A stretch of DNA of 33,774 nucleotides from a virus. Below are positions 3,334 through 22,996 of the stretch, in pieces. The stretch covers positions 1 through 33,774 of IMG/VR virus record IMGVR_UViG_3300027969_000263; one strand, written 5' to 3'. The notes below the pieces were generated by a model. That model ran no database searches. It saw only the letters and a list, made by a program, of their open reading frames with translations, and was not told where the DNA came from. Position 1 is the first letter of the stretch. Each line of letters starts with the position of its first letter. Position numbers and translations under genes: made by a program.

Positions 3334-5244
3334 ATGGCTTATGGCGATGATATTACCGAGGGAATACCCTATGTACTTTCCAATCCAGTAGGTGCTACTA
3401 ACTACGCAGCAACTGGAGAAGCCTACGATATTGCTATCGCTGGTTTACCGTTCTTCCTTGCAGCATCTGATGATAACCCTTACCGTCGTGTAACAGCGCA
3501 GTATCGTAAGCAACAGATTGACCAGACAAGAGAAGCAGGCGAGCAGTCTATTACTGGCTGGTGGCTACGTTCACAGTCTTCATTTCATTACGGCGCTGGC
3601 ATTAAGTTCTTTGAACCTATCCAAGAAGAGTCACTTCGCTTCCAGTACACAGAGTCTAAAGGTGTAGATGTTTGGACACGAGGACAAGCAACCCTTCTCA
3701 ATGACACCAGCTTGTTCTATACAGGTGCCAATGGAGGACAGCTCATTGGTGTCAATGACGGAACCAATGACTGCATCTATGTAACCAATGGTAGTGCATT
3801 AAGAAAGATAACTACTGGTGGTACAGGAACTACGATCACTCAGGCAGGTACGCCTTCTACTATCTATAGCCTAACCACCGATGGATCGAACTATTACTTT
3901 ATCAATGGAACCAAAGTCCACAAAGGATCACTGGGTGCAACTCCAGCAGATAGTGAAATCTATAACACCCCATCAGTAACTAGAGCAACTATCCGCTATG
4001 TCAAGCAACGTCTTATCGTTGCAATTGGCAATGCAATCTATGAACTTAACGCTAACGCTACTGCCTCTGCTGCACTACCTACAGCGTTATACACACATCC
4101 TAACTCTAGTTGGGTATGGTCATCTATTGCAGAAGGACCACAGGCTATCTATGTATCAGGATATGCTCCTAACGGAACATCATCATCTGTCTTTAAGATT
4201 ACATTAGATGCTGCTGTTCCTAACTCATTAGGATTCCCAACGCTCAATACACCAACAGTAATTATTGACCTGCCACAAGGTGAGCAGATCAATGACTTTG
4301 ATGTATACCTGGGTGCTTATGCGATCCTTGCAACTAGCAAGGGATTCCGTGCTGGTATCTCAGATACTAATGGAGACATCCAGTATGGACCATTACTCTT
4401 TAGTGGAGCAGCCTGTAATGCTATTGCCTTTAAGGATAGTTTTGCTTGGCTTGCTACCACCGTTGATGGTGAAGCAGGGCTAGTTCGATGCGACCTATCA
4501 ACAACAGTCCTAGCAAACAGCCTGTTCTTTCCTTGGGCTTGGGACTTGGTGGCTACTGGAACTACAGTTGCAGCAAGCCAGGTTGCTTTCTTTGGTAACT
4601 CAGATCGCCTAGCATTTGTAACAAGTGATACAACCTATGCTGAATCAACTACAAATGTAGTTGCAGAAGGATACCTGCGTACAGGCTTTATCAGATATAA
4701 TACACTTGAGGCTAAGATATACAAACTATTACAAGCACGAGTAGATACCACTAATGGTGGTCTTATCGTTGACTCTATTGATAGTAAAGATGTTGAGTAC
4801 ACAATTGCTCAGTTCTCACAAGGTGAACTAACACCTGAAGTTAACATCAACTATCCACAACAAGCTCAAGAATACTTAGCATTTAAGTTTACTCTTCAGC
4901 GCTCATCTACAGATGTAAGCAAGGGACCACTCTTTACTGGCTATCAGCTCAAAGCACTGCCAGCAATCCCACGTCAGCGTCTTATTCAGTACCCATTGTT
5001 CTGCTACGACCACGAGAGCGATCACTTCGGCGTTGAGGTTGGATACGAAGGCGCTGCCTATGCTCGTATGTCACAGTTAGAAACCGTCGAAAACAACGGA
5101 GACAGTATCCGTGTTGAAGACTTTAGAACTGGTGAGTCTTTTATTGGACTCATCGAAGAGATGGATTTCTCTAACCGTACCCCATCCGATAAGCGATTCT
5201 CTGGTTTTGGTGGATTGCTCTTAGTGACAATTAGGACAATCTAG
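3334..5244 (+). CDS. Large beta-rich tail protein (beta-propeller/nozzle-like)
   Basis: The 636-residue protein begins three bases after the FN3 gene, with GGAG upstream. Residues about 130-430 show repeated short strands with aromatic and Gly-rich turns (LTTDGSNYYFINGTKVHKG, SSWVWSSIAEGPQAIYVSG, ATSKGFRAGISDTNGDIQYGP), the look of a beta-propeller. The C-terminal 150 residues (YPLFCYDHESDHFGVEVGY onward) form a separate compact domain. In short-tailed phages the large protein downstream of the adaptor is usually the tail nozzle. A baseplate or receptor-contact protein of a long-tailed phage is the alternative. Its stop overlaps the GTG start of the next gene. Confidence 0.6.
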   Translation: MAYGDDITEGIPYVLSNPVGATNYAATGEAYDIAIAGLPFFLAASDDNPYRRVTAQYRKQQIDQTREAGEQSITGWWLRSQSSFHYGAGIKFFEPIQEESLRFQYTESKGVDVWTRGQATLLNDTSLFYTGANGGQLIGVNDGTNDCIYVTNGSALRKITTGGTGTTITQAGTPSTIYSLTTDGSNYYFINGTKVHKGSLGATPADSEIYNTPSVTRATIRYVKQRLIVAIGNAIYELNANATASAALPTALYTHPNSSWVWSSIAEGPQAIYVSGYAPNGTSSSVFKITLDAAVPNSLGFPTLNTPTVIIDLPQGEQINDFDVYLGAYAILATSKGFRAGISDTNGDIQYGPLLFSGAACNAIAFKDSFAWLATTVDGEAGLVRCDLSTTVLANSLFFPWAWDLVATGTTVAASQVAFFGNSDRLAFVTSDTTYAESTTNVVAEGYLRTGFIRYNTLEAKIYKLLQARVDTTNGGLIVDSIDSKDVEYTIAQFSQGELTPEVNINYPQQAQEYLAFKFTLQRSSTDVSKGPLFTGYQLKALPAIPRQRLIQYPLFCYDHESDHFGVEVGYEGAAYARMSQLETVENNGDSIRVEDFRTGESFIGLIEEMDFSNRTPSDKRFSGFGGLLLVTIRTI

Positions 5245-5450
5245 TGCAGGCACAAGACTACGCAACAGTAGCTGTTGCAGTAATGACAATCGTAGGTGGC
5301 TTTGTTGGCGCAGTTCGCTGGCTAGTAAAGCATTATCTCAACGAACTTAAACCCAATGGTGGCTCAAGTGTCAAGGACTCCATTACTAGATTAGAAACTA
5401 AGGTAGAGATTCTCTATCAGATGATGCTACAAAAGGGGAACAATGAATGA
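5244..5450 (+). CDS. Small one-helix membrane protein, holin candidate
   Basis: A 68-residue protein started by GTG overlapping the previous stop (TAGTG). It has one hydrophobic segment (residues about 8-24, VAVAVMTIVGGFVGAVRW), then a basic stretch and a C-terminal amphipathic helix with heptad-like spacing (ITRLETKVEILYQMML). It lies immediately before an endolysin gene, with an ATGA overlap, so a holin or holin-regulating role is the natural inference. Many actinophages place one or two such membrane proteins around the endolysin. Confidence 0.65.
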   Translation: MQAQDYATVAVAVMTIVGGFVGAVRWLVKHYLNELKPNGGSSVKDSITRLETKVEILYQMMLQKGNNE

Positions 5451-5899
5451 AGAAACTTGTAAAGAAAGCCACACCTGCCGCTATTGCTGTACTTCGACAG
5501 GCCACAGCGATATGTCCATTGCGTATGAAAGCATCCGATGGACTTCTCCCATCAGCAGCGCATATCAATCAGAATCCCAACAGTGACCACAACACAGGAT
5601 ACGCAGTAGATCTAACGCACGACAAACTAGGTGGCATTGATTGCTTCCTGCTATTTCAGAAGTTACAAGAAGATCCACGTGTGAACTATTTGATTTTCCA
5701 CGGAAAGATTTGGTCTAAAGACAAAGGTGTACACGAGTACACAGGACCAAACAAGCACAACAAGCATCTCCATATCTCAATCAAAGAAGGATGTGGAGAT
5801 GACACTTCCCCTTGGTTCCCTTGGCTGGGCAAACCAAAGGTTGTCAACAAAGTCAAGGCAGCAGTTAGGCCTTTACCCAAAAAGAAGGAGAACCAATGA
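5447..5899 (+). CDS. Endolysin, M15-type D,D- or L,D-peptidase
   Basis: The 150-residue enzyme has the zinc-binding signature of M15 peptidases: SDHNTGYAVDL (His48 and Asp55) and HLHISIK (His107, His109), which bind Zn and activate water. This family cuts peptide cross-links or stem peptides in peptidoglycan. There is no signal peptide, so release depends on a holin, and holin-like genes flank it on both sides. The C-terminal tail (about residues 128-150) is Lys- and Pro-rich and could help bind the cell wall. Start and stop overlap the neighbours by ATGA, forming a compact lysis cassette. Confidence 0.85.
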   Translation: MKKLVKKATPAAIAVLRQATAICPLRMKASDGLLPSAAHINQNPNSDHNTGYAVDLTHDKLGGIDCFLLFQKLQEDPRVNYLIFHGKIWSKDKGVHEYTGPNKHNKHLHISIKEGCGDDTSPWFPWLGKPKVVNKVKAAVRPLPKKKENQ

Positions 5900-6087
5900 A
5901 CAAAGATAAGTTAATTGCTATGGCATCTACGTACCTACGTGCTGGCATTGCATCAGTAATTGCTCTATACCTTGCAGGCGTAACAGATCCAAAGGCTTTA
6001 GCATCAGCAGCAGTAGCTGCAGTTGCAGGTCCATTGCTTAAGGCAATTGATCCAAATTGTAAAGAGTTTGGTCGTGGGTCTAAGTAA
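5896..6087 (+). CDS. Holin-like membrane protein
   Basis: A 63-residue protein with two hydrophobic stretches (residues about 16-28, AGIASVIALYLAG, and 33-48, ALASAAVAAVAGPLLK) separated by a short turn with TDPK, and a charged C terminus. This is the shape of a class II holin or a small actinophage membrane protein often annotated as holin. It follows the endolysin with an ATGA overlap and an AAGGAG ribosome site, and a strong terminator stands 24 bases after its stop. Which of the two flanking membrane proteins is the pore former cannot be settled from sequence. Confidence 0.65.
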   Translation: MNKDKLIAMASTYLRAGIASVIALYLAGVTDPKALASAAVAAVAGPLLKAIDPNCKEFGRGSK

Positions 6088-6110
6088 CCCATAGCGCGAG
6101 GCAAACAGGA

Positions 6111-6144
6111 GGTCGGTCCCTACGGGGACCGGCCTTCTTTTTTT
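6111..6144 (+). terminator. Rho-independent terminator after the lysis cassette
   Basis: A GC-rich stem (GGTCGGTCCC pairing with GGGGACCGGCC around a TAC loop) is followed by TTCTTTTTTT. It ends the rightward tail-lysis transcript and separates it from the convergent leftward gene. Confidence 0.9.
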
Positions 6145-6445
6145 ATGCCATTTTGTCCACAGGGCAAGGCACAACTACTAGATTGCCACAGTTAACACAG
6201 GTTGCATCAAGGAAGTACCAGACCAGCTCGTAGTCTTCAAAGCAGGCCATAACGTTAAAGACTTGGGAGCCACACGGACACACGTGAAGTGGTCCTAAAC
6301 CCCGCAGATCGGTCCCAAAAGGCTCAGGAAGGGCATTCCTGCGCCATCTAAACGATGGCAGGGTTGGTAGACGGAACCGCACAGTTACTGTACGGTTGGT
6401 ACCACTGCGCCCTTTGAGGGCGCCCGTCTGTTTAATTCGCCTCAC
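6143..6445 (-). CDS. Small Cys-rich (zinc-ribbon-like) protein of unknown function
   Basis: The C-terminal 47 residues hold a CPCG knuckle and, after an acidic aromatic stretch (FEDYELVWYF), a CVNCG knuckle plus a further Cys. This is a zinc-ribbon-like arrangement with no recognised activity. The start is uncertain. The longest reading begins at a GTG at 6445, seven bases after a TACAAT box, which would suit a leaderless message. An internal GTG at 6382 (reading VRFRLPTLP) would leave the palindromes at 6376-6423 outside the gene and gives an about 79-residue protein. The gene is alone on the minus strand, convergent with the lysis operon and divergent from the proteasome-like gene. Confidence 0.65.
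   Translation of the reverse strand: MRRIKQTGALKGRSGTNRTVTVRFRLPTLPSFRWRRNALPEPFGTDLRGLGPLHVCPCGSQVFNVMACFEDYELVWYFLDATCVNCGNLVVVPCPVDKMA
6376..6396. promoter_or_regulatory. 21-bp inverted repeat, operator candidate
   Basis: Arms ACCGCACAGT and ACTGTACGGT are separated by one T and match at nine of ten positions. It lies either inside the first codons of the leftward Cys-rich gene or, if that gene starts at 6382, across its start. The symmetry is that of a dimeric repressor site, but no protein can be assigned. Confidence 0.4.
6407..6423. repeat. Perfect 7-bp hairpin
   Basis: GCGCCCT and AGGGCGC pair around a TTG loop. There is no T-tract on either strand, so a terminator is not indicated. 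It sits between the inverted repeat at 6376 and the divergent start region and supports the idea that this stretch is regulatory, not coding. Confidence 0.5.
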
Positions 6446-6452
6446 GGCTCAT

Positions 6453-6458
6453 ATTGTA
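6453..6458 (-). promoter_or_regulatory. Candidate -10 box for a leaderless leftward message
   Basis: Read on the minus strand this is TACAAT, which fits the TANNNT actinobacterial -10 pattern. It ends seven bases before the GTG at 6445, the spacing expected if transcription starts at the start codon. No convincing -35 is visible and no ribosome site precedes the GTG. Confidence 0.4.
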
Positions 6459-6469
6459 GTGACTAGTAG

Positions 6470-6489
6470 GTGTCGCTACGCGACGACAC
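6470..6489. promoter_or_regulatory. Inverted repeat between divergent genes
   Basis: The segment has outer arms GTGTCG and CGACAC and an inner perfect GTCGC-TAC-GCGAC hairpin. It is centred between the two candidate -10 boxes of the divergent pair, a usual place for a shared operator. Confidence 0.4.
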
Positions 6490-6502
6490 GCCGTAGTGGT
6501 GA

Positions 6503-6508
6503 TAGGCT
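6503..6508 (+). promoter_or_regulatory. Candidate -10 box for a leaderless rightward message
   Basis: TAGGCT (TANNNT) ends six bases before the ATG of the proteasome-like gene. No Shine-Dalgarno sequence precedes that ATG. The spacing suits a leaderless transcript. No -35 is evident. Confidence 0.4.
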
Positions 6509-6514
6509 TCTAGT

Positions 6515-7072
6515 ATGACAACAATCGCGGCACTTGAAGGTATTGATTACGCTGTTCTAGTAGCCGACTCACAGATCACTGAGGACAACCTAGTAACGTT
6601 AGCAACGAGTACGCCAAAGATTATTGAAGTGGGTAAGTATCTCATTGGTATATCAGGCGATACTAGACCTGGTGACATCCTTGCCTATAACTGGAAACCA
6701 CCGCTCTACCGTGGTGAAGACCCAGCACAATTTATGGGTCGCAAGATTATCCCAAGTATTCTCACAGCATTTAACGACAACAACTACGACTACAACAAGG
6801 TGGACAAAGATGGTGGCTTCGATTATCTCATTGCTTTTAACGGCAATATCTTTCGTATTGCTTGTGATCTCTCTTTTTTCCAAGCAAATCACGGAGCGTA
6901 TGGCATTGGTAGTGGGGGGCAGCTTGCTCTTGGCTACCTGTATTCAATTTGCAAACCTGATATGGACCTAGCCTACGCAAAGAGACACGCCCGTAAAGCT
7001 GTTGAGATCGCGTCGGTCCTTGATGCCAACACCGGTAAGCCTCTACAATTGGTGGTACAGGAGAGGATGTAG
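6515..7072 (+). CDS. Proteasome beta/HslV-like Ntn hydrolase
   Basis: The 185-residue protein begins Met-Thr-Thr-Ile-Ala, so Met removal would expose the N-terminal Thr nucleophile used by proteasome beta subunits and HslV. Numbering from that Thr, Asp17 (in VADSQ), Lys34 (STPK, next to canonical Lys33), Gly47 (ISGD), Ser132 (IGSGGQ, canonical Ser129) and Asp169-x-x-Thr172 (canonical Asp166 and Ser169) fall where the active site needs them. Length equals a mature beta/HslV subunit, with no propeptide. The fold in known relatives is a barrel-forming threonine protease; autoprocessing amidases share it. No alpha subunit, ATPase partner or ClpY-like protein is in the window. It may act alone, as a homomeric barrel, or with host ATPases. 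No Shine-Dalgarno is seen and the transcript may be leaderless. Confidence 0.85.
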   Translation: MTTIAALEGIDYAVLVADSQITEDNLVTLATSTPKIIEVGKYLIGISGDTRPGDILAYNWKPPLYRGEDPAQFMGRKIIPSILTAFNDNNYDYNKVDKDGGFDYLIAFNGNIFRIACDLSFFQANHGAYGIGSGGQLALGYLYSICKPDMDLAYAKRHARKAVEIASVLDANTGKPLQLVVQERM

Positions 7073-13835: not shown

Positions 13836-14210
13836 TTAGTAAACCTTAGCCACATCTACTATGTTCTGCACGATCCATTCTACTACAGGTACAGCTACTG
13901 CATTACCCATCTGCTTATACCTGGTTGAGTCTGACTGTCCAGCAGTCCAGTCATCAGGGAAACCCTGCAGTCTTTCGCACTCTATTGGAGTTAAACGGCG
14001 TACGTTAGTTCCCATAATTAACTTACCTTCCTCAACGTATTGGTTACCTACTCCTTTGTAATCTCTTGCTTGTAAAGTACCCATCACCATCACAGTTGTT
14101 CGCACATCACCATTATCAAATGCGTTCATAGTGGGCATCACTCCTCCTTCAATCCAAGTCTCGTAATCATCCACGTTCTGTGCTCTTCTGCTCTTAGTAA
14201 ACCACAACAT
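13836..14210 (-). CDS. Cytosine-5 DNA methyltransferase, C-terminal part (split gene)
   Basis: The 124-residue frame has a target-recognition-like section (SRRAQNVDDYETWIEGG, PTMNAFDNGDVRTT) and then RRLTPIECERLQGFPDDWT and YKQMGNAVAVPVVEWI, which are motifs IX and X of C5 methylases. Motifs I-VIII are in the upstream gene, in another frame, overlapping by 17 bases. The frame change needed to join them is +1, at the sequence GTTGTGGTTTACTAA. It is either a frameshifted gene, an assembly or sequencing error, or a genuine two-subunit enzyme like M.AquI. Confidence 0.8.
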   Translation of the reverse strand: MLWFTKSRRAQNVDDYETWIEGGVMPTMNAFDNGDVRTTVMVMGTLQARDYKGVGNQYVEEGKLIMGTNVRRLTPIECERLQGFPDDWTAGQSDSTRYKQMGNAVAVPVVEWIVQNIVDVAKVY

Positions 14211-14907
14211 TATCTTCCGGTCTTTTGTATGTAGTAGCAGTAAGTGTTGTTACTCCTGGTGTGTACTTAGCAAAACCTGTTTGACCAAAGCTGCTTGCAG
14301 TTTCTCTGGCAAGGTCTTGCCTCTCTTGTTTGCCCTGCGTAAGATCCCTTCGCAAGCCCTCTGACTTAAAGAGTATTTCGGCAACGCCTCCGCTAGTAGC
14401 ACGTCTGCCAACGATGAAGACTCTACGCCTGCGCTGGGGTACTCCGAAGTGTTGAGCATCAAGCACACGCCATCCGAGAGAATACCCGAGGTCGGCCATC
14501 GTCCCGATGACGACTCCAAAATCTGCTCCGTTGTTACTGGATAGCAAACCAGGTACGTTTTCGATGATGAAGTATTCTGTTTGCGTTTCTTCCACAAGTC
14601 TTGCAATCTCCCAGAATAACCCGCTTCGTTCGCCAGCAAGACCAGCTCTTTTGCCAGCAACGCTGAGGTCTTGGCAGGGAAATCCTCCAGTAATAATTCC
14701 TCTGCTTGGTGTAAATCCTGCATTTATTAGATCCTCTCCCTTAACTGTGGTCACATCTGTAAATTGTTTAGCGTCAGGAAAATGCTGCGCCAATACTTGG
14801 TTGCAGTTCTTATCTATCTCAACCGAGGCTACTACCTTTACTCCTTGTCGTTGCATAGCTAAGTCAAAGCCACCAACGCCTGCAAACAAACTAACACCGG
14901 TCAGCAT
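14194..14907 (-). CDS. Cytosine-5 DNA methyltransferase, N-terminal catalytic part
   Basis: The 237-residue product has motif I (SLFAGVGGFDLA, SAM binding), motif IV (GGFPCQDLS, nucleophile Cys78), motif VI (ENVPG, residues 116-120) and motif VIII (QRRRRVFIVG). The start ATG at 14907 overlaps the preceding stop (TGATG); an in-frame GTG lies three codons earlier. It stops in the target-recognition region and motifs IX-X are supplied by the following overlapping frame. The enzyme would methylate cytosine in a specific site, for example to escape host restriction. No cognate restriction gene is in the window. Confidence 0.9.
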   Translation of the reverse strand: MLTGVSLFAGVGGFDLAMQRQGVKVVASVEIDKNCNQVLAQHFPDAKQFTDVTTVKGEDLINAGFTPSRGIITGGFPCQDLSVAGKRAGLAGERSGLFWEIARLVEETQTEYFIIENVPGLLSSNNGADFGVVIGTMADLGYSLGWRVLDAQHFGVPQRRRRVFIVGRRATSGGVAEILFKSEGLRRDLTQGKQERQDLARETASSFGQTGFAKYTPGVTTLTATTYKRPEDNVVVY

Positions 14908-15326
14908 CAGTACCACCCTCTTCTGTCGCTATGTTGGAGAGCGCGACACGCACTCCCTCCATAGCGGTGACTAAGGTATCGTAAGCCGTGAAGGACTTGA
15001 AGTTCAGGTTGTCCACTACGCTCTCCAAGGAGTTGAGCAATTCCAAAAGCCGAGCTTCGTTTGTTATCTGCGAGGTGGTCAAACCTGCTCTCACGGGTCC
15101 ATAAGGTGACGAGACATCTGACTTGGTTTTGATTGTAACCGAGTGCTCGTGCGTAACTGACTGTAAGTGCCTTGTTCTCACGCTTCTCCTCCATCGTAGC
15201 TTTCGTCCGCGCTTTCATAATCGGTACGTCCTGCGACATCTGGGACAGAGTTGGCTCGTGTGTGTACGCCCACGCTAAGAACAGTAGTGCCGTCAATACT
15301 AATCCAATTTTTCCCTTGCTTTTCAT
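14907..15326 (-). CDS. Lytic transglycosylase/lysozyme-like protein with N-terminal membrane anchor
   Basis: The 139-residue protein starts with MKSKGKIGLVLTALLFLAWA, a basic start and hydrophobic helix that could be a signal anchor. LWTRESRFDHLA (Glu79 candidate catalytic) and SSAFGIAQLLGERSG are the SLT-type active-site and following motif, and the end (GLRYLSHRYGGSACRALQHSDRRGWY) is the lysozyme-like fold with a typical actinophage tail. It would cut glycan strands. It overlaps the upstream 100-residue gene by 149 bases in another frame. If it started at an ATG at 15191 the overlap would be small but the hydrophobic helix would be lost. Confidence 0.75.
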   Translation of the reverse strand: MKSKGKIGLVLTALLFLAWAYTHEPTLSQMSQDVPIMKARTKATMEEKRENKALTVSYARALGYNQNQVRCLVTLWTRESRFDHLADNKRSSAFGIAQLLGERSGQPELQVLHGLRYLSHRYGGSACRALQHSDRRGWY

Positions 15327-21238: not shown

Positions 21239-22996
21239 TTGTTATCAGTTAAAGAAGTAGACGCTAAGCTAGCACGCTTACGTACTCGCTCATCAGCGCG
21301 AGATCAACGTATGCGTGATGTGCTCTCGGTGCGTCAGGGAGATATCTCTAAGGTATACCCTGCAATGTTTTCAGAGGAATACCCAAAGCCTCTGGTTGCA
21401 AACTTCATTGACGTCGCAGCACGTGACCTTGCAGAAGCAATGGCACCACTGCCATCCTTTAACTGCTCAGCAACTAATATGGTTTCAGATGCAGCACGCA
21501 AAGCTGCAGATACTCGTACTCGTATTGCAAACTTTTATGTAACAAACTCTGACCTACAACTGCAGATGTACACAGCAGCAGACTGGTATAACACCTACGG
21601 TCTTGGTATCGGTATGGTTGAGATGGATTTTGAGGACAACAACCCTCGTATCCGTATGCTCAACCCATTCGGTACATACCCAGAGTTAGATCGTTATGGT
21701 CGTGTTTTGTCTGTTACTCAGGTCATTGTTACCGATGCAGAGACACTAGCTGGACAGTATCCAGAGTATTACGATTTGATTCTAGGCCGTAACCAGTACG
21801 CTCTTTCTTCTCCTTATATCTCAATGGTTAAGTACCACGACAAAGATCAGGACCTGCTTTATATACCAGAGCGTAAGAACCTAGTTCTATCACGCACACC
21901 TAACATCTTGAACAAGCCTATGGCATCTGTCATTATGCGTTCTTCTCTTGATGGAGAAGCACGTGGACAGTTTGATGATGTTCTATCAGTACAACTTGCT
22001 CGTGCTCGCTTTGCAGTATTGCAGATCCAAGCAGCAGAAAAGTCTATCCAAGCACCTATTGCTATCCCACAAGATGTGCAAGAGTTGGCACTTGGTCCAG
22101 ATTCAATTATGCGTTCTGCTAACCCACAAGGTATTCGTCGTGTTCCACTAGAACTACCACCTGGAGTCTTTACAGAGTCTGGTGTATTAGAGCGTGAACT
22201 ACGTCTTGGTGCTCGTTACCCTGAATCTCGTTCAGGTAACATTGACGCATCAGTTGTAACAGGCCGTGGTGTGCAAGCACTACAGGCTGGCTTTGATACA
22301 CAGATCAAGGCAGCTCAAGCACAGTTTGCTCGTATGTTCCAAGAACTTATCTCAGTATGCTTTGAAGCAGATGAGAAAGTATTTGGTGGTATTCCAAAGA
22401 CCATCAAGGGAACAGATGATGGAACACCTTACGTTCTTAAGTACACACCATCTCGTGATATCAAGGGTGAATACGGCGTAGATGTACGTTACGGAATTAT
22501 GTCTGGTATGGATCCAAACCGTGCCATCATTGCTTTACTACAAATGCGTTCAGACAAGCTCGTATCTCGTGACTATGTACGTCGTGAGATTCCAATGGAC
22601 TTGAATGTAACTCAGGAGGAACAACGTGTTGATATTGAAGAGATGCGCGATTCTTTGCGTGTTGCTGTTGCACAGTATGCTCAGGCAATTCCAGCCCTCG
22701 CAGCGCAAGGTCAAGACCCTAGTGAGATTATCTCACGTATCGCAAGTGTTATCCAAGGTCGCCAAAAGGGGCAATCACTAGAGTCAGTAATCGAAAAAGC
22801 ATTTACACCAGAACCACCTCCAACCCAGCAGATGCCACCAATGGCACCAGGTATGGAGCAACAACTTCCAGCAGCAGGTGTGGCCCCCGCTCCTGCCTCG
22901 CAGCAACCTCCACAAGAACAAGCTGGTCAGGCCCCTGCTGCTGGTCAAAAACCCGATATAGCCCAACTACTAGCTGGTATTACCGGCGCAGCATAA
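21239..22996 (+). CDS. Portal protein
   Basis: The start is TTG at 21239 with AAGGA upstream. The 585-residue protein has an N-terminal helical clip-like region, a YGLGIGMVEMDFEDNNPRIR strand pair, a GTYPELDRYGRVL turn, and a long helical core with regular Asp/Arg, consistent with phage portals of the size directly downstream of terminase. The C-terminal 60 residues are Pro/Gln/Ala-rich. Portals form the dodecamer at the packaging vertex. The assignment rests on position, length and overall pattern. Confidence 0.8.
   Translation: MLSVKEVDAKLARLRTRSSARDQRMRDVLSVRQGDISKVYPAMFSEEYPKPLVANFIDVAARDLAEAMAPLPSFNCSATNMVSDAARKAADTRTRIANFYVTNSDLQLQMYTAADWYNTYGLGIGMVEMDFEDNNPRIRMLNPFGTYPELDRYGRVLSVTQVIVTDAETLAGQYPEYYDLILGRNQYALSSPYISMVKYHDKDQDLLYIPERKNLVLSRTPNILNKPMASVIMRSSLDGEARGQFDDVLSVQLARARFAVLQIQAAEKSIQAPIAIPQDVQELALGPDSIMRSANPQGIRRVPLELPPGVFTESGVLERELRLGARYPESRSGNIDASVVTGRGVQALQAGFDTQIKAAQAQFARMFQELISVCFEADEKVFGGIPKTIKGTDDGTPYVLKYTPSRDIKGEYGVDVRYGIMSGMDPNRAIIALLQMRSDKLVSRDYVRREIPMDLNVTQEEQRVDIEEMRDSLRVAVAQYAQAIPALAAQGQDPSEIISRIASVIQGRQKGQSLESVIEKAFTPEPPPTQQMPPMAPGMEQQLPAAGVAPAPASQQPPQEQAGQAPAAGQKPDIAQLLAGITGAA

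Follow-up and report, generated by a model that had tools for sequence, protein, structure and literature searches.

A proteasome-like N-terminal-threonine hydrolase gene at two positions in phages related to the cultured 'Ca. Planktophila' phages

The locus and its phage lineage

The stretch of DNA analysed here, referred to as the window, is a viral contig of 33,774 bases (IMG/VR record IMGVR_UViG_3300027969_000263, positions 1 to 33,774) with a G+C content of 44.8%. Within it, a gene for a proteasome-like Ntn hydrolase (the Ntn gene) follows a lysin gene, a holin gene and a strong terminator, precedes an exonuclease gene and is separated from the head genes by 12.7 kb. A Cys-rich ORF diverges from it (Table 1), as had been noted in a preliminary description made from the nucleotide sequence.

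Table 1. Features of the window discussed in the text
Feature	Position	Strand	Remarks
Lysin-like gene	5447..5899	+	E7 counterpart 68% identical; resembles M15-type peptidases; PHROG match of unknown function
Small holin-like membrane protein gene	5896..6087	+	Predicted from sequence
Intrinsic terminator after holin-like gene	6107..6138	+	14-pair stem, then T tract; separates lysis genes from Ntn gene
Cys-rich (zinc-ribbon-like) ORF, divergent	6143..6445	-	GTG start; TACAAT at 6453-6458, 7 nt away
Inverted repeat GTGTCG(8)CGACAC	6470..6489		Inner arms GTCGC/GCGAC; at the expected -35/operator place
Putative leaderless promoter, -10-like TAGGCT	6503..6508	+	6 nt before ATG; no Shine-Dalgarno-like motif
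Proteasome-like (group I) N-terminal-threonine hydrolase gene	6515..7072	+	ATG start, 185 aa; assigned by profiles, conservation and predicted fold
Portal protein gene	21239..22996	+	Directly followed by the Ntn gene in E7-type sister phages

Among annotated genomes, those nearest to the window are OX376640 and OX376641 (42% for the major capsid protein, 46% for the terminase), which belong to LanE43-AprE7 (E7) and LanE43-AprF5 (F5). These were the first phages to be brought into culture on 'Ca. Planktophila' (PMC10202952). The window belongs to the family of these two phages. It encodes WhiB, and this gene together with the sister relation to E7 and F5 makes an actinobacterium its likely host, in line with the phage context and actinobacterial host proposed in the preliminary description. 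The genomes of E7 and the window are collinear: terL and the genes for portal, a protein of 150 aa, a giant protein, scaffold, capsid protein, tail, lysin, helicase, primase and sigma factor follow the same order in both, and the Ntn gene alone departs from it. Both E7 and F5 encode a homologue of the Ntn enzyme that is 29-30% identical to the window protein, and the main text of the paper describing them (PMC10202952) makes no mention of it. Elsewhere in the window, a DNA cytosine methyltransferase is encoded on the minus strand (13836-14916) in two overlapping frames (14194-14916 and 13836-14210), possibly owing to a frameshift or a sequencing error.

Family, fold and active site

The ATG at position 6515 is the earliest possible start codon in its frame, so a propeptide cannot be encoded, as had been proposed. 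Also as described earlier, removal of Met1 leaves a Thr-Thr-Ile N-terminus, and Asp17, Lys34, Gly47, Ser132, Asp169 and Thr172 are all present. The profile link to the proteasome family on which that description had staked its assignment was found in the match to PF00227 (E=6.6e-11, 42.7 bits against a Pfam cut-off of 22.4 bits) and in the match to PHROG 1040, "peptidase HslV family" (E=6.8e-27). The AlphaFold2 monomer model, computed with 39 relatives in the input (pLDDT 92.4, pTM 0.88), displays the anticipated alpha-beta-beta-alpha Ntn sandwich. Foldseek returned more than 1,200 PDB matches at E<=0.001, the best-ranked of which were all proteasome-like, with BPH, 20S beta and HslV subunits as the best folds and the BPH structure 5OVS as the top match (E 2.2e-12, TM-score 0.77, rmsd 3.8). 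The window ORF encodes an Ntn hydrolase of the proteasome-like family, only about 18-23% identical to 20S, HslV and BPH subunits.

The name "proteasome-beta/HslV-like" given to the protein earlier is borne out for family, fold and active-site set and has to be given up for membership in HslV or 20S beta themselves. The protein scored 17.6 bits against the 157.75-bit equivalog cut-off for HslV and 28.1 bits against 224 for the archaeal 20S beta equivalog (NCBIfam), and the bacterial 20S beta model was not among the NCBIfam matches listed for it. HslV (ClpQ) has a similar fold and the N-terminal Thr, whereas the window has a longer acidic loop and no hslU. This loop, which connects H2 to the following strand, is very short in HslU-gated HslV and long and acidic in BPH (PMC8665760); here it has a median of 16 residues and a net charge of -3. 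By both sequence and fold the best solved relative is BPH (5OVS, 5OVT and 5OVU), in which Thr1, Asp17, Lys and Gly47 are intact as in the window protein and for which no unfoldase is known, although it is only 23% identical to the window protein and the sampled BPH proteins lack the W-x-P-P loop described below.

All four helices flanking the proteasome beta fold (H1-H4) are present in the AlphaFold2 model, the helix at residues 70-88 being H2, and strands 3 and 4 are joined without a two-helix insertion. A short H1 leads into an invariant [W/F]-x-P-P loop, which, like Arg50, marks the window branch. The span from H3 to H4 comprises 37 residues in window-type proteins, whose gene is placed as in the window, versus 26 in those of the E7 type; in the predicted models H4 itself has 18 versus 11 residues.

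Fuchs, Alva and Lupas (2021) described 22 new proteasome-like groups, including PPH (in phages and hosts) and AAH; both occur in phages, with neither a known function nor co-occurring AAA+ partners, some members of a further group, CPH, are found in phages as well, and no Actinobacteria-specific phage with AAH was found (PMC8665760). PPH proteins lack helix H2 and are about 140 residues long (PMC8665760), whereas the window protein has 185 residues and retains H2. In profile-profile comparison the window branch matched AAH/PPH-like proteins best (5.1e-33), followed by BPH (4.6e-19) and E. coli HslV (6.5e-11). In a tree of 48 proteins, whose AAH/PPH labels were set by taxonomy and similarity and not from the sequences of Fuchs et al., the AAH/PPH-like clade (100/96) and the BPH clade (100/98) both exclude the window protein, which groups with other actinophage proteins on a weakly supported branch (56/71). 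The AAH/PPH-like entries comprise proteins of Rhizobium, Sinorhizobium, Streptomyces and Paraburkholderia plasmids, myxococcal proteins and proteins of Moorella, Psychrobacter and Geobacillus phages. They share Arg50 and mostly the [W/F]-x-P-P loop with the window branch; unlike it, all ten carry Ser at the place of Gly47 and Val at that of Ser169, which makes the window branch catalytically the more canonical. On these comparisons the window protein appears to fall in a separate, mostly actinophage branch, outside HslV, 20S beta and the AAH/PPH-like clade. PHROG 1040, with members from VpV262, T5-like Salmonella and Escherichia phages and Aeromonas phage 2L372X, has the same fold and N-terminal Thr, but many of its annotated members belong to another branch with an MTCI start and Ser at the place of Gly47.

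Thr1, Asp17, Lys34 (the family's Lys33, shifted by one residue) and the oxyanion residue Gly47 were invariant in 238 of 238 viral relatives, although the conservation of MTTI and Thr1 is partly built in, as MTTI served as a pattern in two of the three homologue searches; the conservation of Asp17 is unaffected by this pattern and the 80 close relatives are free of the bias. Among the same 238 proteins, position 132 is Ser or Thr, position 169 is Asp in 197, Asn in 39 and Ser in 2, and position 172 is Thr or Ser. Comparison of the window gene with the 80 close relatives gave a median dN/dS of 0.064 and a maximum of 0.11, and by this measure of omega the Ntn gene is under purifying selection. 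Position 45, in the S1 pocket, holds a small or aliphatic residue, from which a hydrophobic P1 preference of the predicted enzyme is a reasonable guess.

Gene positions and expression signals

Sixteen long contigs were picked by their terminase, independently of the Ntn gene, and in all 16 (4/4 of the window type and 12/12 of the E7 type) the gene was present once and intact, which indicates that it belongs to the core genome and is fixed at either of two sites. In E7 the portal gene stands directly before it and genes for small proteins come directly after it; the portal gene immediately precedes it in 49 of 60 E7-type loci, and its distance to terL agrees with that in E7 in 12/12 long E7-type contigs. 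In DSL-LC01-like phages the Ntn gene adjoins lysis-type genes and stands two genes before a portal gene, and in VpV262 and other phages it is found at other sites. In 41 of 81 window-type relatives, though not in the window, an HNH-endonuclease-like ORF (for example at 3340-3687 on the minus strand of relative L027) is found immediately upstream of the Cys-rich ORF. This ORF might be the sign of an insertion hotspot and might account for the move of the Ntn gene.

The two positions go with different start signals. A TANNNT box 5-8 nt before the ATG was present in 69 of 75 window-type relatives, of which only 9 had a Shine-Dalgarno-like motif (66 were without). Among the E7-type relatives, such a motif was found in 54 of 58 and the TANNNT box in only 8. 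The Ntn genes of E7 and F5 themselves differ from that of the window in their Shine-Dalgarno-like start, in their slot after the portal gene and in the shorter H3-H4 span of the product. Conservation across relatives thus suggests that the window-type gene probably has its own leaderless promoter, which a generic sigma-70 scan of the window did not flag, while the signals of the E7 type fit an operon gene. An inverted repeat is kept within the 60 nt before the ATG in most of the 81 window-type loci, in some of them with matched changes in both arms (GTTGC/GCAAC).

The Cys-rich ORF (CxCG...CxxCG) is present in 64 of the 81 window-type loci, with an omega of about 0.16 for its Cys-rich end, and had zero Pfam or PHROG matches. 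It is a neighbour of the Ntn gene, and any role as its partner is putative. The interval between the two genes (6446-6514) forms a divergent promoter region, with TACAAT on the minus strand, TAGGCT on the plus strand and the conserved inverted repeat between them, and both genes look leaderless.

Possible functions and wider distribution

A partner gene was not visible to the preliminary description, and likewise no HslU/Clp-type AAA+ gene (AAA_2) was found in 14 phage records, which include the window, E7, F5 and DSL-LC01 and may be incomplete. Matches to PF00004 in E7 and F5 were rejected as AAA+ partners because they represent a DnaB-like helicase, and one match in DSL-LC01, judged by eye, was set aside as a MoxR/CobS-like ATPase. 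The accompanying premise that this family needs an ATPase partner is untrue for BPH, Anbu and connectase (PMC8665760).

Because the catalytic set is intact, the four helices are retained, the acidic loop has 16 residues and no unfoldase was found, we propose, with a probability of about 0.5, that the Ntn gene encodes a BPH-like threonine peptidase that is active without ATP, probably forms a ring and acts late in infection; we infer its activity, oligomeric state, timing and substrate. Host methionine aminopeptidase would remove Met1 and expose Thr1, which would allow maturation without a propeptide. The most probable assembly of the subunits would be a homo-oligomeric, BPH-like ring, which may cleave unfolded or short polypeptides without an ATP-driven unfoldase of its own, the fairly long acidic loop restricting substrate entry. 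Late expression is probable, from the head operon in the E7 type versus the gene's own promoter beside the lysis genes in the window type. Against a BPH-like ring stands the TM-score to BPH of only 0.77. The oligomer may differ from known ones, since the combination of a short H1 with a [W/F]-x-P-P loop is absent from the sampled BPH and HslV proteins, and it may also differ between the two phage branches, as the H3-H4 span that is about 11 residues shorter in the E7 type could weaken ring-ring contacts.

The slot directly after the portal gene is the usual position of a prohead protease, and the E7-type Ntn gene occupies it. The enzyme could on this ground be a virion-morphogenesis protease that trims scaffold, portal or internal virion proteins, performing the prohead-protease job with an unrelated fold, a reading that we regard as unlikely. 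It would accord with the position two genes before a portal gene in DSL-LC01-like phages and with the finding of no S78, S49 or ClpP-type protease in window- or E7-type records, which may be incomplete. However, DSL-LC01 already encodes an S78 protease, and Manuel, a Streptomyces phage with a related capsid of the same type, matches neither the Ntn enzyme nor S78 or S49 profiles, so such a head may need no protease; these two phages together weaken a general role in head maturation. The window major capsid protein lacks a long pro-region and begins at the conserved core, a separate gene encodes the scaffold, and the remoteness of the window-type gene from the head genes, like its location in VpV262 and other phages, also speaks against this role. 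That the hydrolase is an essential morphogenesis protease of freshwater Nanopelagicales phages, taking over the slot and the job of the prohead proteases and relocated under a leaderless promoter in the window lineage, seems to us rather improbable. No earlier report of a proteasome-type phage morphogenesis protease was found in the open-access literature.

The proteasome-like family also includes connectase, a monomeric ligase, and Anbu, an open ring (PMC8665760), and the phage enzyme might by analogy be a hydrolase or peptide ligase of high specificity for a single host or phage target, perhaps working as a monomer or a small oligomer. The short H1 with its [W/F]-x-P-P loop and the short H4 of the E7 type could mean that ring contacts are lost. 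Yet connectase lacks H1 and H2, whereas the window protein retains all four flanking helices, shows no insertion of two helices between strands 3 and 4 and follows the BPH-like loop pattern, and we consider such a specialised enzyme rather doubtful. Very unlikely, finally, is that the protein plugs into a host AAA+ machine (HslU, Clp or Mpa/ARC) or a mixed 20S ring and redirects host protein degradation, which would suit the likely actinobacterial host (the WhiB gene, and sister phages on 'Ca. Planktophila', PMC10202952) and the finding of no phage HslU/Clp-type unfoldase, but the wider family is spread over phages of many bacterial groups and the low identity to 20S, HslV and BPH subunits makes mixed rings unlikely. 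No paper on the proteasome, Pup or ATPase content of Nanopelagicales was found in the open-access literature.

Phage homologues of the proteasome are already known (PHROG 1040; PPH and AAH in PMC8665760), by sequence since at least 2021, and none with a function was found in the open-access literature, which likewise yielded no description of the actinophage branch or of its behaviour in these viruses. The present analysis adds this apparently separate, catalytically complete branch, the core status and the two alternative positions of its gene, and the cultured phage-host pair. In the very abundant actinophages of fresh water, an AAH-related and catalytically complete branch would be part of the core genome, and since E7 and F5 are in culture with their host, the role of a phage proteasome-like enzyme is directly testable.

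The other branch occurs in about 130 records of Salmonella and Escherichia phages and in some jumbo phages, where its members are mostly annotated as hypothetical, and most of the Salmonella and Escherichia records among the matches listed have a T5-like genome size. A close bacterial homologue that could serve as gene source or host marker was sought, and none was present among the genome contigs searched; the profile search returned mostly BPH-like and AAH/PPH-like proteins, together with one contig (L095) filed under a gammaproteobacterial MAG. The latter carries phage genes for a lysin, a metallophosphoesterase and an Ntn hydrolase, arranged as in DSL-LC01-like actinophages, and is probably mis-binned. 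On a plasmid of Sinorhizobium fredii (L112:2001-2546), an AAH/PPH-like gene lies between nifQ and iron-sulphur/nifS genes, and similar genes are found on other rhizobial and Streptomyces plasmids.
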